This document shows, piece by piece, positions 21,396-54,700 of a stretch of 64,000 nt of DNA. The position numbers were made by a program, and so were the translations under genes. Below the pieces are notes generated by a model. It was given only the letters and a program-made list of their open reading frames with translations, made no database searches and was not told the origin of the DNA. The DNA comes from Catenulispora sp. EB89 (GTDB taxonomy: Bacteria; Actinomycetota; Actinomycetes; Streptomycetales; Catenulisporaceae), in NCBI RefSeq assembly GCF_041261445.1, contig NZ_JBGCCU010000004.1, positions 124,001-188,000 on the forward strand, in the 5' to 3' direction. How positions within the stretch are numbered: the stretch's first letter is position 1; every line of letters starts with the position of its first letter.

Positions 21396-22019
21396 TCAGG
21401 CCACGGCGGCCATCTCGCGCGAGCGGGTCGGCGCCGTGGCCTCGTCGACGAGCGCGAGCGCCAGGTCGGCGTACGCGAACGTGGCGGCGCCGGGGATCGC
21501 CTGGGTGTCGCCGAGCCGGTAGCCGCCGGTGCCGGGGCCCTCGTCGAGGAACACCAGCGGCGGGGCCAGGACCACCCAGTCCAGGTTCGAGGCCTGCAAC
21601 AGGGGAAGCTGCGCGGCGTGGCTGCGGGAGAAGGCCCGGGCCTCCTCGGGAAGACCGTCGCTGTCGTAGGCCGGCACCCCCGGCGCCACTTCGAGCGCGC
21701 CGCCGATGCCGACCGCGACCAGCCTCCGGACTCCGGCCGTGCCGAGTCCTTCGACCAGCGCGCGGGCGGCGGCCACGAAGTGGCCCTGGTCCATGGCCGC
21801 GGCGGTGTTGACCGCGACGTCGTGGCCCTTCGCGAGGGCGGCGACGCTCGCGGCGTCGGTGACGTCGCCGGCGACGACGGTCACGCCGCCTGCCGCGAGG
21901 TCCTGGTACTTGGCCGGGTCGCGCACGACGGCCGTGACCGTGTGCCCGCGCCGCGCCGCCTCGGCCACCGTGGGCCGTCCGGCGCGACCGCCGGCTCCGA
22001 AAACGATGATGTTCGCCAT
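21396..22019 (-). CDS. NAD(P)H-binding reductase (YwnB/NmrA-like)
   Basis: A 207-residue atypical short-chain reductase starting MANIIVFGAGGRAGRPTVAEAARRG (nucleotide-binding GxGGxxG). It continues VTAVVRDPAKY, VVAGDVTDAASVAAL and GVRRLVAVGIGGALEV. The short length and RRLVAVG step are those of the NAD(P)H-binding proteins (PF13460) that often pair with an HxlR regulator. The start is ATG 22019; the frame is open 11 codons further up. It is divergent from the HxlR gene at 22076, which is probably its regulator. Confidence 0.8.
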   Translation of the reverse strand: MANIIVFGAGGRAGRPTVAEAARRGHTVTAVVRDPAKYQDLAAGGVTVVAGDVTDAASVAALAKGHDVAVNTAAAMDQGHFVAAARALVEGLGTAGVRRLVAVGIGGALEVAPGVPAYDSDGLPEEARAFSRSHAAQLPLLQASNLDWVVLAPPLVFLDEGPGTGGYRLGDTQAIPGAATFAYADLALALVDEATAPTRSREMAAVA

Positions 22020-25753: not shown

Positions 25754-26692
25754 TCAGCCGGCGGTGATGAGGACGCGTATCTCTTCGGCGATGGGGTCCA
25801 GCTTGTCCTGGACGCCGATGCCGCAGAAGAAGTCCCAGAGCTCGAAGCTGTGGATCACCTGGAACAGACGGAACCTGCGCTCCCATTCGATCGGGACTTC
25901 GCCGTAGCCCTCAAAGAGTCCGTCGAGCTTCGCGCGGTTGTCGCCGACGGAGTAGCTGTGGGTCTTGGAGAGGTCCGCTATGGGATCCCCGGCCATGGCG
26001 TTCTCCACGTCGATCAGGCCGCTGAGGACCGGGCCGTCGGGGGTCTGCGTCACTATGACGTTCCCCTCGTGGAAGTCGTTGTGGAGAAGTACCGGCCCTC
26101 TACAGAGGGAGAACAGCTCTGCGCGCTCGCCGACGTACTTGTGCGCCGCCTCATAGAGTTCTCGATCGCCGGTGGTGTCCAGATAGCTCTGTGAAACGCG
26201 CTTAAGCGTTGCCTGCATCTGGGCTTCGTTGGTCGGCTGGGGATCGAGGATTTCCGTGGTGAGGTAGCCGTAGGCCTCCTGTCCGATCGTGTGGATCCGT
26301 GCCAGGAGTGCTCCCATCTGGCGGTAGACGTCCTTGAGTTCGGGCTCGGGGAGGGTGCCGCTGATCGCCGCGACCGTGGTCCCGGGCAGTTTGCTCATCA
26401 GCAAGTACGGCAGGCCGAGAAGTCCGTTCGGACCGGCCCCTCCGAGGAGCTTCGGCAGCAGCTCTATAGCGTTCTCGCGCAGGAGACGGTAGACGCCGAT
26501 CTCTTTGAGGAGTTTCCATCCGTCGTCTTTTCCGTAGACCTTCACTACAGCGTTCTGTAGAGGGTCTGCGCAGACGACCTCATAGGCACCGGTCTCGATG
26601 CCGCCGTCCATCCGCTCCACGGCAAGGACCCGCGCACCGGGGACCGCTTCCCGCATCATCTCAGCAGCCTGTTCCCGGGTCAGCTCAGCCAC
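25754..26692 (-). CDS. Aminoglycoside phosphotransferase-fold kinase
   Basis: A 312-residue protein with the APH/choline kinase fold. The catalytic loop LLHNDFHEGNVIV supplies HxDxxxxN and is followed by the metal-binding LIDVENAMAGDP. The N-lobe has NAVVKVYGKDDGWKLLKEIGVYRLL with a Lys likely to bind ATP. The GTG start at 26692 was chosen for the AELTREQAAEMM beginning. Base composition is visibly lower in GC than both flanks, hinting at a different origin. The substrate could be an antibiotic, a sugar or a small metabolite; it is not decidable here. Confidence 0.82.
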   Translation of the reverse strand: MAELTREQAAEMMREAVPGARVLAVERMDGGIETGAYEVVCADPLQNAVVKVYGKDDGWKLLKEIGVYRLLRENAIELLPKLLGGAGPNGLLGLPYLLMSKLPGTTVAAISGTLPEPELKDVYRQMGALLARIHTIGQEAYGYLTTEILDPQPTNEAQMQATLKRVSQSYLDTTGDRELYEAAHKYVGERAELFSLCRGPVLLHNDFHEGNVIVTQTPDGPVLSGLIDVENAMAGDPIADLSKTHSYSVGDNRAKLDGLFEGYGEVPIEWERRFRLFQVIHSFELWDFFCGIGVQDKLDPIAEEIRVLITAG

Positions 26693-26755
26693 CGGGCCAC
26701 CGTAGTGACGGTCCGTGATGGATCTCAACGGATTTTCGCTCGTTAGAATCACGGC

Positions 26756-27214
26756 ATGGGTGACGAACCGCGGTGGCTGTCCGATCAGGAGATGAAGGCC
26801 TGGACGGGCTTCTTGGCCGCGACCGCGCTGGTGGAGCGGCGGATCGATCACCAGCTGCGGGAGGACGCCGGGCTGTCGCACACGCAGTACGAGATCCTGG
26901 TGCGGCTCTCCGCCGCCCCTGAGGGTTCGCTGCGCATGACCGAGCTCGCCGAGGCGCTGCTGAACTCCAAGAGCGGGCTGACGTACCAGATGACCCAGCT
27001 GGAGAAGGCCGGGCTGACCGAGCGCCGGTCGTGCCCGACGGACGTGCGCGGGGTTTTCGCCGTCCTCACGGAGGCCGGACGGAAGAAGCTGGAGCAGGCC
27101 GCGCCCGGACACGTGGCGGTGGTACGTGAGGCACTGATCGACGTGTTGACCCCCGAGCAGCTCACGGTGCTCGCGGACGGTCTCGGAGAGGTCTCCCGGC
27201 GGCTGCGGGAATAG
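26756..27214 (+). CDS. MarR-family transcriptional regulator
   Basis: A 152-residue protein of typical MarR layout. The winged helix (about 45-110) has LSHTQYEILVRLSAAPEGSLRMTELAEALLNSKSGLTYQMTQLEKAGLTERRSCPTDVRGVFAVLTEAGRKKL, with the DxR wing tip. Flanking helices form the dimer. Two similar palindromes lie just downstream, before ribA, so it probably controls the ribA-dioxygenase pair. There is no conserved Cys obviously placed for thiol sensing; the ligand is unknown. Confidence 0.88.
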   Translation: MGDEPRWLSDQEMKAWTGFLAATALVERRIDHQLREDAGLSHTQYEILVRLSAAPEGSLRMTELAEALLNSKSGLTYQMTQLEKAGLTERRSCPTDVRGVFAVLTEAGRKKLEQAAPGHVAVVREALIDVLTPEQLTVLADGLGEVSRRLRE

Positions 27215-27233
27215 CCCCGGTGCGGGTGGGGTT

Positions 27234-27249
27234 TGTTCAAATTCGAACG
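27234..27249. promoter_or_regulatory. Putative MarR operator, upstream site
   Basis: TGTTCAAATTCGAACG is a near-palindrome with TGTTC and GAACG arms. It is a close match to the site at 27275-27290. Confidence 0.65.
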
Positions 27250-27274
27250 CCGGTCTACAGTCGGCGCAGCAGGT

Positions 27275-27290
27275 TGTTCGAATTGGAACA
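27275..27290. promoter_or_regulatory. Putative MarR operator, downstream site
   Basis: TGTTCGAATTGGAACA has perfect TGTTC/GAACA arms. It lies 36 bases before the ribA start and 41 bases from the first site, about four helical turns. MarR proteins typically bind palindromes of this length. Confidence 0.7.
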
Positions 27291-27325
27291 GCTCTGGAAC
27301 AGCTCGTCACGGAGGGACCCGTGCC

Positions 27326-27955
27326 ATGAACGAGACACCCGAGGCATCTATCCGTACCCGCGTGCGCGTGCCGCTCCGGTTCGGTGACGGCTACAGCGTG
27401 GACGCCGAGCTGGTGACGTTCCACGGCCTGGTCGACGGCGGCGAGCACCTGGCCATCGTGCTCGGCGAACCGGGCCGCACGCCCCTGGTGCGGATGCACT
27501 CGGAGTGCCTGACCGGCGACGTGTTCGGCTCCGCGCGCTGCGACTGCGGGCCGCAGTTACGCGAGTCCGTCGAGCGCATCGCCGAGGCCGGCGGCTACCT
27601 GCTGTACCTGCGGCAGGAGGGGCGCGGGATAGGGCTGTACAACAAGCTCGACGCGTACGCGCTGCAGGACTCCGGGCTGGACACGTACCAGGCCAACGTC
27701 GCACTGGGGCTGCCGGAGGACGCGCGGGACTACACCGTCGCCGCGCAGATGCTGACGGCGCTCGGCGTGGACAGCGTGCACCTGCTGTCGAACAACCCGG
27801 ACAAGGAGGCGCAGCTGGCCGGGCTGGACGTGACGGTCGCCGAGCGCGTCCCGACCGGTGCGCACGCCACCGCCCAGAACCTGCGCTACCTCCGGGCCAA
27901 GGTCGAGCACACGCGGCACAGCATCGTGCTGGACGACGTGCTGTCCGTGGCCTGA
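27326..27955 (+). CDS. ribA: GTP cyclohydrolase II
   Basis: A 209-residue monofunctional enzyme that opens GTP to 2,5-diamino-6-ribosylamino-4-pyrimidinone 5'-phosphate, the first riboflavin precursor. Zinc ligands are in ECLTGDVFGSARCDCG (C61, C72, C74). The catalytic and GTP-binding parts are LRQEGRGIGLYNKLDAYALQD (around 96-115) and SNNPDKEAQLAGLDV. There is no fused RibB (dihydroxybutanone phosphate synthase) domain as in many actinobacterial RibBA proteins. GGAGGG precedes the ATG. It is placed with a dioxygenase gene behind a MarR-type operator rather than with ribD/ribE/ribH, so a role outside bulk riboflavin synthesis is possible. Confidence 0.9.
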   Translation: MNETPEASIRTRVRVPLRFGDGYSVDAELVTFHGLVDGGEHLAIVLGEPGRTPLVRMHSECLTGDVFGSARCDCGPQLRESVERIAEAGGYLLYLRQEGRGIGLYNKLDAYALQDSGLDTYQANVALGLPEDARDYTVAAQMLTALGVDSVHLLSNNPDKEAQLAGLDVTVAERVPTGAHATAQNLRYLRAKVEHTRHSIVLDDVLSVA

Positions 27956-27981
27956 GCCGCTCCGCACACCCAGGAGATGCC

Positions 27982-28797
27982 ATGAGCACCGAGACGAGCA
28001 CACCCCCTGCGTCCCCGTCGTCCCCATCCGCCGACCGCATGCCCGCGATCTACCTCAGCCACGGCGCGCCGCCGCTGGCCGACGACCCGCTGTGGCCGGA
28101 CCAGCTCGCGGCCTGGTCGGCGGACCTCCCGAAGCCGAAGGCCGTGCTGATGGTGTCGGCGCACTGGGAGGAGGCGCCGCTGGCCCTCGGCGCCACCACG
28201 ACGATCCCCCTGGTCTACGACTTCTGGGGCTTCCCACAGCACTACTACGAGGTCCAGTACCGAGCGCCGGGCGCACCGGCGCTGGCCGAGTCGGTCCGCA
28301 AGCTGCTGCACGCCCCGGGCCTGGAGGTCCAGGACGAGCCGACGCGCGGCCTCGACCACGGGGCGTACGTCCCGCTGGTGGAGATGTACCCGGAGGCGGA
28401 CGTCCCGGTACTCCAGGTGTCGATGCCGACACTGGAGCCGGAGAAGCTGATGGCCATCGGCCGCCGCCTGGCGCCGCTGCGGGACGAGGGCGTCCTGATC
28501 GTCGGCAGCGGCTTCTTCACGCACAACCTGCGGGCACTGAGCCAGGAGGGCAAGGTGCACTCGGTGATGTCGGAGTTCGACGACTGGGGCAAGCGCGCGC
28601 TGGACGCCGGAGACGTGGACGCGCTGCTGGACTTCGAGAACAAGGCCCCGGCCGGGAAGCTGGCGCACCCTCGGACGGAGCACTTCGCGCCGCTGTTCGT
28701 GACGCTGGGGGCGGCCGAGGCGGAGTTGGGGTCGCAGCGGACGGTTATCGACGGGTTTTGGATGGGGTTGGCCAAGCGGTCGGTGCAGGTCGGGTAG
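27982..28797 (+). CDS. Class III extradiol ring-cleavage dioxygenase (4,5-DOPA dioxygenase/YgiD type)
   Basis: A 271-residue protein of the LigB/DODA superfamily. Metal ligands expected for the family are visible: SHGAPPL (H27), SAHWEE (H61) and the active-site FFTHNL. DHGAYVPLVEMYPEADVPV supplies the catalytic His. Relatives open catechol rings next to the hydroxyls, for example DOPA to seco-DOPA in betalain synthesis. Several bacterial members have no known natural substrate. AGGAGATGCC precedes ATG 27982. It is 26 bases after ribA and surely in the same transcript. Confidence 0.85.
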   Translation: MSTETSTPPASPSSPSADRMPAIYLSHGAPPLADDPLWPDQLAAWSADLPKPKAVLMVSAHWEEAPLALGATTTIPLVYDFWGFPQHYYEVQYRAPGAPALAESVRKLLHAPGLEVQDEPTRGLDHGAYVPLVEMYPEADVPVLQVSMPTLEPEKLMAIGRRLAPLRDEGVLIVGSGFFTHNLRALSQEGKVHSVMSEFDDWGKRALDAGDVDALLDFENKAPAGKLAHPRTEHFAPLFVTLGAAEAELGSQRTVIDGFWMGLAKRSVQVG

Positions 28798-28938: not shown

Positions 28939-29460
28939 GTGGACCACGTAGTCAACATTCTCGAAGGCATCGCAGCGGCTGTCATCGGCACGATGCTCTG
29001 GATCGCCGCCTTGGCGAAGTTCTTCTCGCCGAAAATACGGATCACGCCGATGATCATCAGAGGTGTCAGCAGCGACGGCACGACCACCTACAGAATCCAG
29101 ATCGAGAATCTCGCTCGACGCTCCGTGATCGACCTGCGCTTCGACTGTTCGCTGGTCTTCCCGCACGGCGACACCACCCGAAGTTTCGTCGCCAGGGAAC
29201 CCGGCCGCGAACCCCTGATCATTCCCGGCAAGCGCCACAACCAGGACCACGTCTTCGCGATGCTCCTACGCAGCGATCTCCCTGAGAGAATCGCGGAGTA
29301 CGAGGGCACGTGGCTGCGACTGCGGGTCTTCGCCCGCGACGGCGTGTCCAGCGTCGGCAAGGTCTTCAGCCACGAGTTTCACAAACCACTGGATCTCATC
29401 GTGGACAAGATGCGCGGACAGAACCCGGCGGAAGGCGCGGTGGAAGACATCGCGGAATGA
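28939..29460 (+). CDS. Membrane-anchored protein of unknown function
   Basis: A 173-residue protein with one N-terminal hydrophobic helix (ILEGIAAAVIGTMLWIAALAKFF, about 7-29). A soluble beta-rich domain follows, with TTTYRIQIENLARRSVIDLRFDCSLVFPHGD. There is no signal peptidase site of note, and the domain orientation is uncertain. The GTG start is at 28939. GC is a little lower than in flanking genes. I do not recognise a family; the strand pattern suggests an immunoglobulin-like or similar sandwich, which is inference only. Confidence 0.6.
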   Translation: MDHVVNILEGIAAAVIGTMLWIAALAKFFSPKIRITPMIIRGVSSDGTTTYRIQIENLARRSVIDLRFDCSLVFPHGDTTRSFVAREPGREPLIIPGKRHNQDHVFAMLLRSDLPERIAEYEGTWLRLRVFARDGVSSVGKVFSHEFHKPLDLIVDKMRGQNPAEGAVEDIAE

Positions 29461-51758: not shown

Positions 51759-52445
51759 CTAGCCGTCGATCTCGCCACGGTCGCCGTGGTGGTGGCCGTG
51801 CCGGTTCCCGGTCAGCTCGTCCTTCTTCGGCTGCCGGGGCGCCTTGCGCTTGACGTCCACGCCGCCCATCAGCGCGAAGCCCCGGACGTGCACGGTCGGC
51901 GCGTCGGGGTCGACCGGGCCGACGGGGGTGCCGGAGTAGCCGCCCATGAAGCCGAAGCCGTGCACCTGGACGTTCAGGCCCTCGGGCACGGTGATCTCGA
52001 TGCCGCCCATGATGCAGGAGGCGTTGATCGTGACCTCCATGTCCTCGTACTCGGCCTCGCGCAGGTCGAGCTCGATGCCGCCCATCATCGCGAAGGCGAT
52101 GTAGCTCTTGGGCACCACCCACGCGCCCTTGTTGTCCGAGCCGCCCATCAGCACGAACGTCTTGCGGCGCCGGGGCTTGCCGCCGACGCGCCACCGGCCG
52201 CGGGGCCGGGCGGCCGGGGCCGCCGACGGCCCCGCGCCGGTGCTCGCCGGCAGGTCCCGGGTGATCGGCTCCAGCTCGGCGTAGGTCTTCGCCGTGTAGA
52301 CCGCGGTGATGCGGTCCTCCAGCTCGTCCAGGGCGATACGGCCCTCGCCGGCCGCCTCCCGCAGGCGTTCGGCGACCTGTTCGCGCTCGTTGTCGGAAAC
52401 GCGCAGCTGCCGCGGGTCGATCGGCTCGGGGACGTTGCTCGTCAT
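51759..52445 (-). CDS. DUF1707 and LiaF-like C-terminal domain protein
   Basis: A 228-residue protein. Residues 10-60 (RQLRVSDNEREQVAERLREAAGEGRIALDELEDRITAVYTAKTYAELEPITRDLP) are a clear DUF1707. The C-terminal part (FVLMGGSDNKGAW, IAFAMMGGIELDLREA, INASCIMGGIEITVPEG) resembles the repetitive LiaF/DUF2154 cell-wall response fold. There are no membrane helices here. It ends in a His-rich tail GNRHGHHHGDRGE. Family members associate with membrane stress or division. It is a single gene. Confidence 0.85.
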   Translation of the reverse strand: MTSNVPEPIDPRQLRVSDNEREQVAERLREAAGEGRIALDELEDRITAVYTAKTYAELEPITRDLPASTGAGPSAAPAARPRGRWRVGGKPRRRKTFVLMGGSDNKGAWVVPKSYIAFAMMGGIELDLREAEYEDMEVTINASCIMGGIEITVPEGLNVQVHGFGFMGGYSGTPVGPVDPDAPTVHVRGFALMGGVDVKRKAPRQPKKDELTGNRHGHHHGDRGEIDG

Positions 52446-52472
52446 AAGGGAGACCTTACAAGAACCGCGCCG

Positions 52473-53255
52473 TCACAGGGCGGTGACGTAGGCGCCGCTG
52501 ATCCCGCCGTCGACGAGGAAGTTCGACGCGGTCACGAACGAGGAGTCGTCGCTGGCCAGGAAGGCCACCGCGGCGGCGATCTCCTCCGGTTCGGCGAAGC
52601 TGCCGCGCGGGACGTGCACCAGGCGCCGGGCGGCCCGCTCGGGGTCCTTGGCGAACAGCTCCTTGAGCAGCGGGGTGTTCACCGGCCCCGGGGACAGCGC
52701 GTTGACGCGGATGCCCTGCTTGGCGAACTGCACACCGAGCTCGCGGGACATCGCCAGCACGCCGCCCTTGGAGGCGGTGTAGGAGATCTGCGAGGTGGCC
52801 GAGCCCAGGGTGGCGACGAAGGACGCGGTGTTGATGATCGAGCCGCCGCGGCCGGTCGCCTCGAACTGCCGCTGCATGTGCGGGATGACCGCCTTGCAGC
52901 ACAGGTACACCGAGGTCAGGTTGACCTTCTGCACCCGGTCCCAGGCCTCGATGTCGGTGGCCAGGATCGAGTCGTCGTCCGGCGGGGAGATGCCGGCGTT
53001 GTTGAAGGCGATGTCGACCGAGCCGTAGGTGTCCACGGCGGCCTGGAACAGCGCCCCGACCCGCTCGGCGTCGGTGACGTCGGTCCGCACGAACAGCCCG
53101 CCGACCTCCTCGGCCGCCGCCTTGCCGGCCGCCTCGTCGAGGTCGGCGAGCACCACGTGCGCGCCCTCGGCGGCGAACCGCCGCGCGGTGGCCATCCCGA
53201 TCCCGCCGGTACCGCCGGTGATGACGGCCACCCGGCCGGCCAGACGCTCGGTCAT
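52473..53255 (-). CDS. Short-chain dehydrogenase/reductase
   Basis: A 260-residue classic SDR. The cofactor site is GGTGGIGMATARR, with NNAGIS, the catalytic IINTASF Ser and YTASKGG (YxxxK), and the SPGPVNTPL motif. It is the last gene of the four-gene operon beginning with the glutamine synthetase-like gene; AGGAG precedes its ATG. It may oxidise an intermediate of the same pathway, for example a hydroxy compound or aldehyde. Confidence 0.88.
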   Translation of the reverse strand: MTERLAGRVAVITGGTGGIGMATARRFAAEGAHVVLADLDEAAGKAAAEEVGGLFVRTDVTDAERVGALFQAAVDTYGSVDIAFNNAGISPPDDDSILATDIEAWDRVQKVNLTSVYLCCKAVIPHMQRQFEATGRGGSIINTASFVATLGSATSQISYTASKGGVLAMSRELGVQFAKQGIRVNALSPGPVNTPLLKELFAKDPERAARRLVHVPRGSFAEPEEIAAAVAFLASDDSSFVTASNFLVDGGISGAYVTAL

Positions 53256-53341
53256 TTCTCTCCTGTTCTCACTGCATTGTTCCCGAAGGCGATTCGAAGT
53301 CTGATTCGCATCCTGATCCGGAGCACGAATCAGACCTCGAC

Positions 53342-54700
53342 TCACATGGCGATGAAAATGTTCTTGGTCTCGGTGAACGCGGCCAGCGCGTCCGGCCCGA
53401 GTTCCCGGCCGAGGCCGGACTGCTTGTATCCGCCGAACGGCGTGGAGTACCGGACCGAGGAGTTCGAGTTCACCGACAGGTTCCCGGACTGCACGGCCCG
53501 CGAGACGCGCAGTGCGCGGGACAGGTCGCGGGTCCAGACCGAGCCGGACAGGCCGTACTCGCCGGCGTTGGCGGCGGCCACCACCTCGTCCTCGGTGGCG
53601 AACGGGGTCACGGTCACGACCGGCCCGAACACCTCCTCGCACTGGATCGCCGCGTCCGGGGCGATGCCGGTGACGACGGTCGGCGGGAACCAGAAGCCGT
53701 CGCCGTCGGGAACCTCGCCGCGGTAAGCGATATTCGCTGCGTCGACGCCATCCACGAACCCTGCGACGCGCGCCTTCTGCGCCGCCGAGATGAGCGGGCC
53801 CATCTCGGTCTTGTCGTCCAGCAGGTCGCCGATCACCACGCCCCGGCAGGCGTTCAGGAAGTGCTCCATGAACTCCTCGTAGGCCGAGGCCTCGACGTAG
53901 ATCCGGGACCGCGCGCAGCAGTCCTGACCGGCATTGTCGAAGACGCCGTAGGGCGCGGCAGCAGCAGCCTTTTCGACATCCGCGTCGGCGAAGACGATGT
54001 TCGGGCTCTTGCCGCCGAGCTCCAGCGTCACCCGCTTCACGCGGGCCGCGCACTGCGCCATGATCGAGCGGCCCACGGCCGAGGAGCCGGTGAACACGAT
54101 CTTGCGGACGTCCGGGTGCTCCACGAGCCGCGCGCCGGCCTCGGGCCCGAAGCCCGGGACGACCTGCAGCACGCCTTCCGGCAGCCCGGCCTCCAGCGCG
54201 AGCTCGGCCAGCCGCAGCGCGGTCAGCGGCGTGGTCTCGGCGGGCTTGAGCACCACGGTGTTGCCGGCCGCGAGCGCCGGGGCGAAGCCCCACGCGGCGA
54301 TCGGCATCGGGAAGTTCCACGGCACGATCACGCCGACCACGCCGAGCGGTTCGGCGATGGTCAGGTCCAGACCGCCGGCGACCGGGATCTGTCGGCCGAA
54401 CAGGCGCTCCGGCGCCGCCGAGTAGTAGGTCAGGACGTCGCGGACGTTCCCGGCCTCCCAGCGGGCGTTGGAGATGGTGTGGCCGGCGTTCTCCACTTCG
54501 AGACGCGCCAGCTCCTCGGCCTGGGAGTCGACGAGCTCGGCGAAGCGGCGCAGCAGCCGGGCCCGGTCGGCCGGGGCGACGTCGCGCCAGGCCGGGAAAG
54601 CCTTGTGCGCGCGGGCCACCGCCTCGTCCACGCCCGCGGCGGACGTCATCTCGATGGAGCGGAAAACGGCGCCGGTGGCCGGGTTGATCAGGTCGTACAC
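53342..54700 (-). CDS. Aldehyde dehydrogenase (PuuC-like)
   Basis: A 452-residue NAD(P)-dependent enzyme. Motifs are VVGVIVPWNFPMPI, KPAETTPLTALRLAEL, FTGSSAVGRSIM, LELGGKSPNIVFADAD with catalytic Glu, and NAGQDCCARSRIYV with nucleophile Cys. The operon context (GlnA-like, gamma-glutamyl hydrolase, ALDH, SDR) points to gamma-glutamyl aminoaldehyde or a related amine-derived aldehyde as substrate. Confidence 0.9.
   Translation of the reverse strand: MYDLINPATGAVFRSIEMTSAAGVDEAVARAHKAFPAWRDVAPADRARLLRRFAELVDSQAEELARLEVENAGHTISNARWEAGNVRDVLTYYSAAPERLFGRQIPVAGGLDLTIAEPLGVVGVIVPWNFPMPIAAWGFAPALAAGNTVVLKPAETTPLTALRLAELALEAGLPEGVLQVVPGFGPEAGARLVEHPDVRKIVFTGSSAVGRSIMAQCAARVKRVTLELGGKSPNIVFADADVEKAAAAAPYGVFDNAGQDCCARSRIYVEASAYEEFMEHFLNACRGVVIGDLLDDKTEMGPLISAAQKARVAGFVDGVDAANIAYRGEVPDGDGFWFPPTVVTGIAPDAAIQCEEVFGPVVTVTPFATEDEVVAAANAGEYGLSGSVWTRDLSRALRVSRAVQSGNLSVNSNSSVRYSTPFGGYKQSGLGRELGPDALAAFTETKNIFIAM

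Follow-up and report, generated by a model that had tools for sequence, protein, structure and literature searches.

Units in which a MarR-type regulator controls a ring-cleaving dioxygenase are known. In Bacillus, the quinone-response units of MhqR and CatR include the DoxX-like protein CatD and the catechol dioxygenase CatE. Streptomyces coelicolor has three GTP cyclohydrolases II (GCH II), and SCO6655 carries Met in place of Tyr and makes a formylated product. SCO2687 and SCO6655 are both named in PMC2853524. In the same species, SCO3205 binds two operators in the region separating its own gene from sco3204, a divergent gene for an extradiol dioxygenase, and the 2013 paper does not assign it a function (PMC3737563). 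AbsC (SCO5405) holds salicylate in its pocket via a Trp and a His and, as cited in that paper, is implicated in zinc-dependent antibiotic production; the accessible text reports no ribA or dioxygenase target for it (PMC3737563). In rhizobia, the riboflavin formamidase gene brbF lies beside a MarR gene in a conserved region; deletion of that MarR gene caused no riboflavin auxotrophy, and control of the enzyme by this MarR is not stated in section 6 of that paper (PMC9478397).

Here, we describe a unit of marR, ribA, and an extradiol dioxygenase gene in the window (the whole stretch of Catenulispora sp. EB89 DNA analyzed, 64,000 nucleotides). MarR-type control and a ring-cleaving dioxygenase would be shared with the Bacillus MhqR/CatR units, as is a DoxX partner in related loci, whereas the Bacillus dioxygenases belong to another family and no GCH II is known to be involved there. 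This gene content speaks for a quinone- or catechol-stress regulon of the MhqR/CatR kind, with derepression by quinones or catechols as a putative step. The presence of a spare GCH II in one actinomycete recalls S. coelicolor, although the window RibA has Tyr where SCO6655 has Met. Like SCO3205/sco3204, the locus combines a regulator of the same MarR group, carrying the same Trp/His pair (Trp16/His119), with two operators and an extradiol dioxygenase as the candidate target; in the S. coelicolor system, however, the dioxygenase gene is divergent and ribA is not involved, whereas the window unit is led by ribA (PMC3737563). AbsC falls in the same tree clade as the window MarR (support, 0.993) but differs in its implicated role, and brbF is a partial precedent for a riboflavin-pathway gene with a MarR gene, although it encodes a different enzyme and comes from a different phylum (PMC3737563; PMC9478397).

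We favor, at about an even chance of being right, the reading that the unit is a derepressible aromatic/quinone-response operon, in which flavin-precursor synthesis would be raised past FMN feedback while the dioxygenase opens catechols. The element that appears to be new is the spare, riboswitch-free GCH II as a regular partner of this regulator group. Among the matches listed in a search of mostly open literature, no title or abstract linked MarR to GCH II; this is weak evidence of absence because subscription journals were mostly outside the search.

Gene content and the spare GTP cyclohydrolase II

All three genes lie on the plus strand of the window: marR (26756 to 27214), encoding a 152-aa, repressor-type MarR regulator of the AbsC/SCO3205 group (Pfam MarR, 5.6e-10); ribA (27326 to 27955), encoding a 209-aa monofunctional GCH II (Pfam GTP_cyclohydro2, 5.9e-59); and a gene for a LigB/DODA-type extradiol dioxygenase of 271 aa (27982 to 28797; Pfam LigB, 3.6e-31). 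These matches, together with two 16-base palindromes between marR and ribA, confirm the module reported in the first-pass annotation. The gap between ribA and the dioxygenase gene is only 26 bp, suggesting that the two share one transcript. The marR-ribA-dioxygenase order, which that annotation had proposed seeking in other genomes, was found in 10 of 10 genus genomes searched, with 29 to 125 bp between the aligned parts of the RibA and dioxygenase proteins. Because these genomes are related, they are not independent, which counts against the favored reading. In one of them (G007), ribA was matched in two pieces, reflecting an assembly error or a frameshift.

Two flanking genes were also noted. 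An APH-family gene (25757 to 26755, minus strand) is divergent from marR; by eye, several genus genomes lack it and have the end of a TetR gene at that position. A gene for a 173-aa protein (28939 to 29460, plus strand) lies 3' of the dioxygenase gene; the protein had no match in Pfam or NCBIfam and no tblastn match in the flanks (1.5 kb) of the remaining nine genus loci.

RibA belongs to the GCH II family (Pfam, 198.8 bits versus a threshold of 23.3; NCBIfam PRK00393, 264.3 versus 148), although its score against TIGR00505 (189) is below the cut-off of 205.85, a point against the favored reading. GTP_cyclohydro2 was the only Pfam domain found in the protein, in agreement with its first annotation as monofunctional. 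The sequence carries SECLTGDVFGSARCDCG, AYALQ, and EDARD, thus retaining what we take to be the three zinc cysteines and the active-site Tyr and Arg. The Tyr is present in 153 of 153 locus sequences, a set that includes repeats of one gene and RibBA copies, which rules out the formyl-product variant with Met at this position. RibA is predicted to convert GTP to the diaminopyrimidinone product. The nearest named relative among the best 80 of 585 is in a Catenulispora metagenome bin (L058; RibA 91% identical). A third GCH II, 56 to 62% identical to the window RibA, was seen in 3 of the 10 genus genomes (G008, L165; G001, L166; G009, L018).

The genome contains two GCH II loci, the window ribA and a ribBA-type gene on another contig. 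The latter belongs to a ribE-pnuC-ribBA-ribH unit (ribE, pnuC, and ribH read by eye), so the other riboflavin genes, correctly described at first as absent from the module, are located there. An FMN riboswitch (RF00050) precedes this unit (L164:6410-6547; 93.1 bits versus a gathering score of 66.2). No Rfam element, the FMN riboswitch included, reached the gathering threshold between window positions 22000 and 34000. Judged by these sequence matches, the window RibA is a spare enzyme outside FMN-riboswitch control. The case that the first-pass annotation had named as fatal to its proposal, that this ribA is the only GCH II, is therefore untrue, and the additional ribBA it asked after exists.

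The dioxygenase contains a LigB domain (108.7 bits versus 26.3) and all of the histidine motifs SHGAP, SAHW, LDHGA, FFTHN, and EHF. Its closest solved structures are 4,5-DOPA extradiol dioxygenases and Escherichia coli YgiD, and its score against the NCBIfam 4,5-DOPA-extradiol-dioxygenase equivalog (175.3) is below the cut-off of 233, which again counts against the favored reading. We regard it as a relative of the 4,5-DOPA extradiol dioxygenases with only putative DOPA activity. A second LigB dioxygenase of this genome (L006/L163; G000:C10, about 52400-54000) is 47% identical to it and is encoded divergently from a MarR gene whose product is 34% identical to the window MarR; a zinc-type dehydrogenase gene is next (by eye), and different, ACTTGCCNNGGCAAGT-like palindromes lie between the MarR and dioxygenase genes. 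MarR control of LigB-type dioxygenases looks like a recurring theme.

Operators and the MarR group

The two palindromes are putative operators in which repressor binding would occur. Operator 1 (TTGTTCAAATTCGAAC, 27233 to 27248) overlaps a promoter-like -35 box, TTGTTC (27233 to 27238, plus strand), which is followed after 17 bp by a -10-like box, TACAGT (27256 to 27261, plus strand). Operator 2 (TTGTTCGAATTGGAAC, 27274 to 27289) starts 12 bp 3' of the -10 box. The palindromes are 88% alike, with a start-to-start distance of 41, and all 10 genus genomes have both 5' of ribA, two of them with a single mismatch in the second copy. A TTGNNN box over operator 1, a spacing of exactly 17 bp, and a TANNNT box were likewise found in all 10 genus loci versus 3.8% of shuffled downstream stretches; in two of these genomes, the -35-type box lies in the opposite palindrome half, again with a 17-bp spacing. 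Operators placed over the -35 box and 3' of the -10 box would suit control by a repressor.

Within the window, the motif GTTCNAATTNGAAC matched only these two palindromes, both with 0 mismatches, even when 2 mismatches were tolerated (shuffle control, mean of 0.40 matches; at least 2 matches in 8 of 100 shuffles). Across the whole 11.9-Mb assembly, the same two sites were the only exact matches (backwards-read control, 0), and allowing one mismatch added one site versus 2 in the control. A wide regulon in this genome is therefore unsupported, since exact copies are limited to two and the control yields at least as many one-mismatch sites. Autoregulation of marR via the same operator was also rejected, the best match 5' of marR having 5 mismatches. 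Separately, one further exact GTTCNAATTNGAAC site was seen 5' of a small lipoprotein-like gene in 4 of the 10 genus genomes (L159-L162; G002, G003, G005, and G006); the encoded protein contains histidines and a HYHAHLDVIVDG motif, and the one copy scanned had no Pfam match.

A search of 296 genomes of the class with GTTCRAATTYGAAC returned 17 sites in 13 genomes (control, 0), one of which is the window's own. The space between marR and doxX holds ten sites, from nine genomes, and that between marR and a doxX-dioxygenase unit holds two, both from another genome (G243). Two more, in two of the nine marR/doxX genomes, are 5' of dioxygenase genes with no MarR recognized adjacent, and two have no clear gene. 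Pfam backs the gene assignments at these sites for DoxX in five cases, MarR in one, and LigB in one; the remainder come from profiles made here.

The best solved relatives of the window MarR are SCO3205 (3zpl, 5.4e-37) and AbsC (3zmd, 1.1e-30). In a midpoint-rooted tree of 135 leaves, from which short duplicate loci and identical proteins were left out, the window MarR falls in a clade of 29 leaves with AbsC at its base; its regulators are linked to ribA, ribA plus dioxygenase, doxX, or doxX plus dioxygenase genes. A second clade (joint support, 0.994) unites 20 dioxygenase-linked leaves, including SCO3205, with 66 ribA-linked leaves, mostly from Streptomyces; the ribA-linked subgroup inside it has a support of only 0.542, which counts against the favored reading. 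Closest sequence and tree grouping both place the window MarR in the SCO3205/AbsC group, and the contents of the clades indicate that RibA and dioxygenase recur as MarR neighbors in both. The window protein is not an SCO3205 regulator proper, a type defined by TTnAAnnnTCAA operators and a divergently transcribed dioxygenase neighbor: this consensus, published for SCO3205, has no match on either strand at 27200 to 27340 and is present in 19 of 21 same-order dioxygenase loci tested (L177-L197). This mismatch in operator also weighs against the favored reading. Trp16 and His119, the salicylate-pocket pair, are both kept, and Cys93 is the sole cysteine; all three residues are invariant in both clades (29/29 and 86/86). 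Ligand binding in the Trp16/His119 pocket is a prediction.

Partners of ribA beyond the genus

Named loci were drawn from one scan as the best 80 of 585 RibA relatives, a sample biased toward close relatives and Streptomyces. A close MarR was defined as a profile match below 1e-40 inside the stored flank (up to 5 kb), leaving weaker matches (e.g., in L067, L114, L122, and L131) out of the count. Gene calls at partner and operator loci were made partly by G+C position bias, names without Pfam, NCBIfam, or profile backing are given as "by eye," and no count is based on the family clustering of crude open reading frames, which was noisy. A close MarR is present in 66 of these best 80 loci (same-strand upstream in 58, divergent in 7, and downstream in 1) and absent in 14, the latter counting against the favored reading. 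The operator, with at most one mismatch, is found 5' of ribA in 18 of the 80, from Catenulispora, Streptacidiphilus, Actinospica, Kitasatospora, Amycolatopsis, Nocardia, Umezawaea, Kutzneria, and four Streptomyces; 9 of the 18 are among the 14 loci without a close MarR. A related palindrome, TGCTTCA-N4-TGAAGCA, is carried by most of the remaining Streptomyces loci; its arms are perfect in 44 of 57 spacers, and the 14 spacers viewed usually show another, imperfect copy farther upstream. A GGTTCAAGTTT site is also located between marR and a divergent reductase gene (eight Streptomyces loci viewed).

A RibD_C-type reductase is commonly encoded close to ribA, at 57 of the best 80 of 585 loci and, within 1.5-kb flanks, at 23 of the 29 class-search loci. 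For the four proteins scanned, the best NCBIfam model was the archaeal-type 2,5-diamino-6-ribosylaminopyrimidinone phosphate reductase, at scores below its cut-off. A homologue elsewhere in this genome is 52% identical, with no MarR recognized beside it. Other partners in the 80 loci are a zinc-type oxidoreductase (7), pirin (2), and a CMD-family protein (2); a LigB match at L067, obtained with a profile made here, was disregarded, as the frame reads as DoxX-like.

The reductase bears on the possibility that the RibA product itself (a triaminopyrimidinone nucleotide, DARP/APy) scavenges nitrosating or oxidizing species, serving as a chemical shield and not as flavin supply. In yeast, the nitrosative-stress tolerance conferred by GCH II does not depend on the subsequent steps to riboflavin, and the authors concluded that the enzyme's product scavenges NO derivatives (PMC7138843). 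The window operon also has RibA alone, with later pathway genes absent. However, a riboflavin-pathway-like reductase near so many related RibA genes suggests that flux goes onward, and no nitrosative-stress gene was recognized in the module; we consider such a shield quite unlikely.

RibA could instead feed a dedicated flavin-, pterin-, or pyrimidine-like metabolite, with the dioxygenase acting on the product or its partner. The recurrence of both enzymes as targets of one regulator group in the tree fits this idea, as do RibA-RibD_C pairs without this MarR in other actinomycetes (L168:4336-5630, L173:4270-5571, and L174:4953-6309), which are near pterin-synthase-, glycosyltransferase-, and methyltransferase-like genes (by eye) and possibly represent an undescribed pyrimidine or pterin pathway. 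Beside the window module, however, genes of these three kinds were not recognized, RibA retains canonical GCH II residues, and the dioxygenase resembles DOPA dioxygenases, making a dedicated metabolite improbable. Of the two roles offered in the first-pass annotation, inducible flavin supply under catechol or quinone stress is favored by the riboswitch-led second locus, the 10/10 module, and the regulator and operator links elsewhere; a side use of the RibA product seems less likely.

Adjacency of ribA and the dioxygenase gene was found in 2 of the best 80 of 585 loci (L058 and Nocardia miyunensis L125), that is, outside the genus in 1 of the other 79, which counts against the favored reading. 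Streptomyces-like genomes have the two genes at separate loci, and 20 of 22 same-order dioxygenase loci (dioxygenase 70 to 80% identical to the window's; same-order genomes taken as Streptomyces by inference) have a MarR within 1.5 kb. At the cut-offs used, RibA was detected in 29 and the dioxygenase in 102 of 296 class genomes; their class-wide co-occurrence was set aside because kinship confounds it. Rare adjacency and separate loci would suit two functionally unrelated enzymes that share a MarR and promoter merely via gene rearrangement, but both recur as neighbors of this MarR group in both clades, one operator type serves both ribA and dioxygenase genes, and the MarR-RibA link is kept through three arrangements, so we assign this explanation a low probability.

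Proposed mechanism and implications

The gene content, the spare copy, the riboswitch difference, the conserved operators and promoter-like site, the MarR group, and the recurring partners are read from sequence, which gives the linkage and the operators good support; the inducer, substrate, and purpose that we infer for the favored aromatic/quinone-response operon are as follows. MarR would act as a repressor on the two operators flanking the ribA promoter, keeping the ribA-dioxygenase operon off, and would be released when an aromatic compound occupies the Trp16/His119 pocket or a quinone reacts with Cys93. Derepression would then yield extra GCH II from an mRNA without an FMN riboswitch, so that the first committed flavin step could rise despite FMN feedback, with flavin as the presumed benefit. 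The co-produced dioxygenase would cleave catechols before these can cycle to quinones. The module lacks a flavin-dependent quinone reductase, which counts against this proposal. The window unit may represent one version of an aromatic/quinone-response regulon of actinomycetes, in which the other recurring members would include DoxX, a zinc-type oxidoreductase, pirin, a CMD-family protein, and, in Streptomyces loci, the RibD_C-type reductase.

A bolder version, which we think unlikely, is that this aromatic-sensing MarR group switches on a riboswitch-free, flavin-type pyrimidine step (in Streptomyces, together with the reductase step) as a stress response in which a reactive pyrimidine or a new derivative, and not riboflavin, would be the protectant or the partner substrate of the dioxygenase.

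The favored reading offers a testable role for the SCO3205/AbsC group, in which aromatic sensing would be coupled to the committed flavin step outside FMN-riboswitch control. If it is true, the operator would be a handle for inducible riboflavin output, and flavin supply in these soil bacteria would have two inputs, cofactor feedback and aromatic stress.
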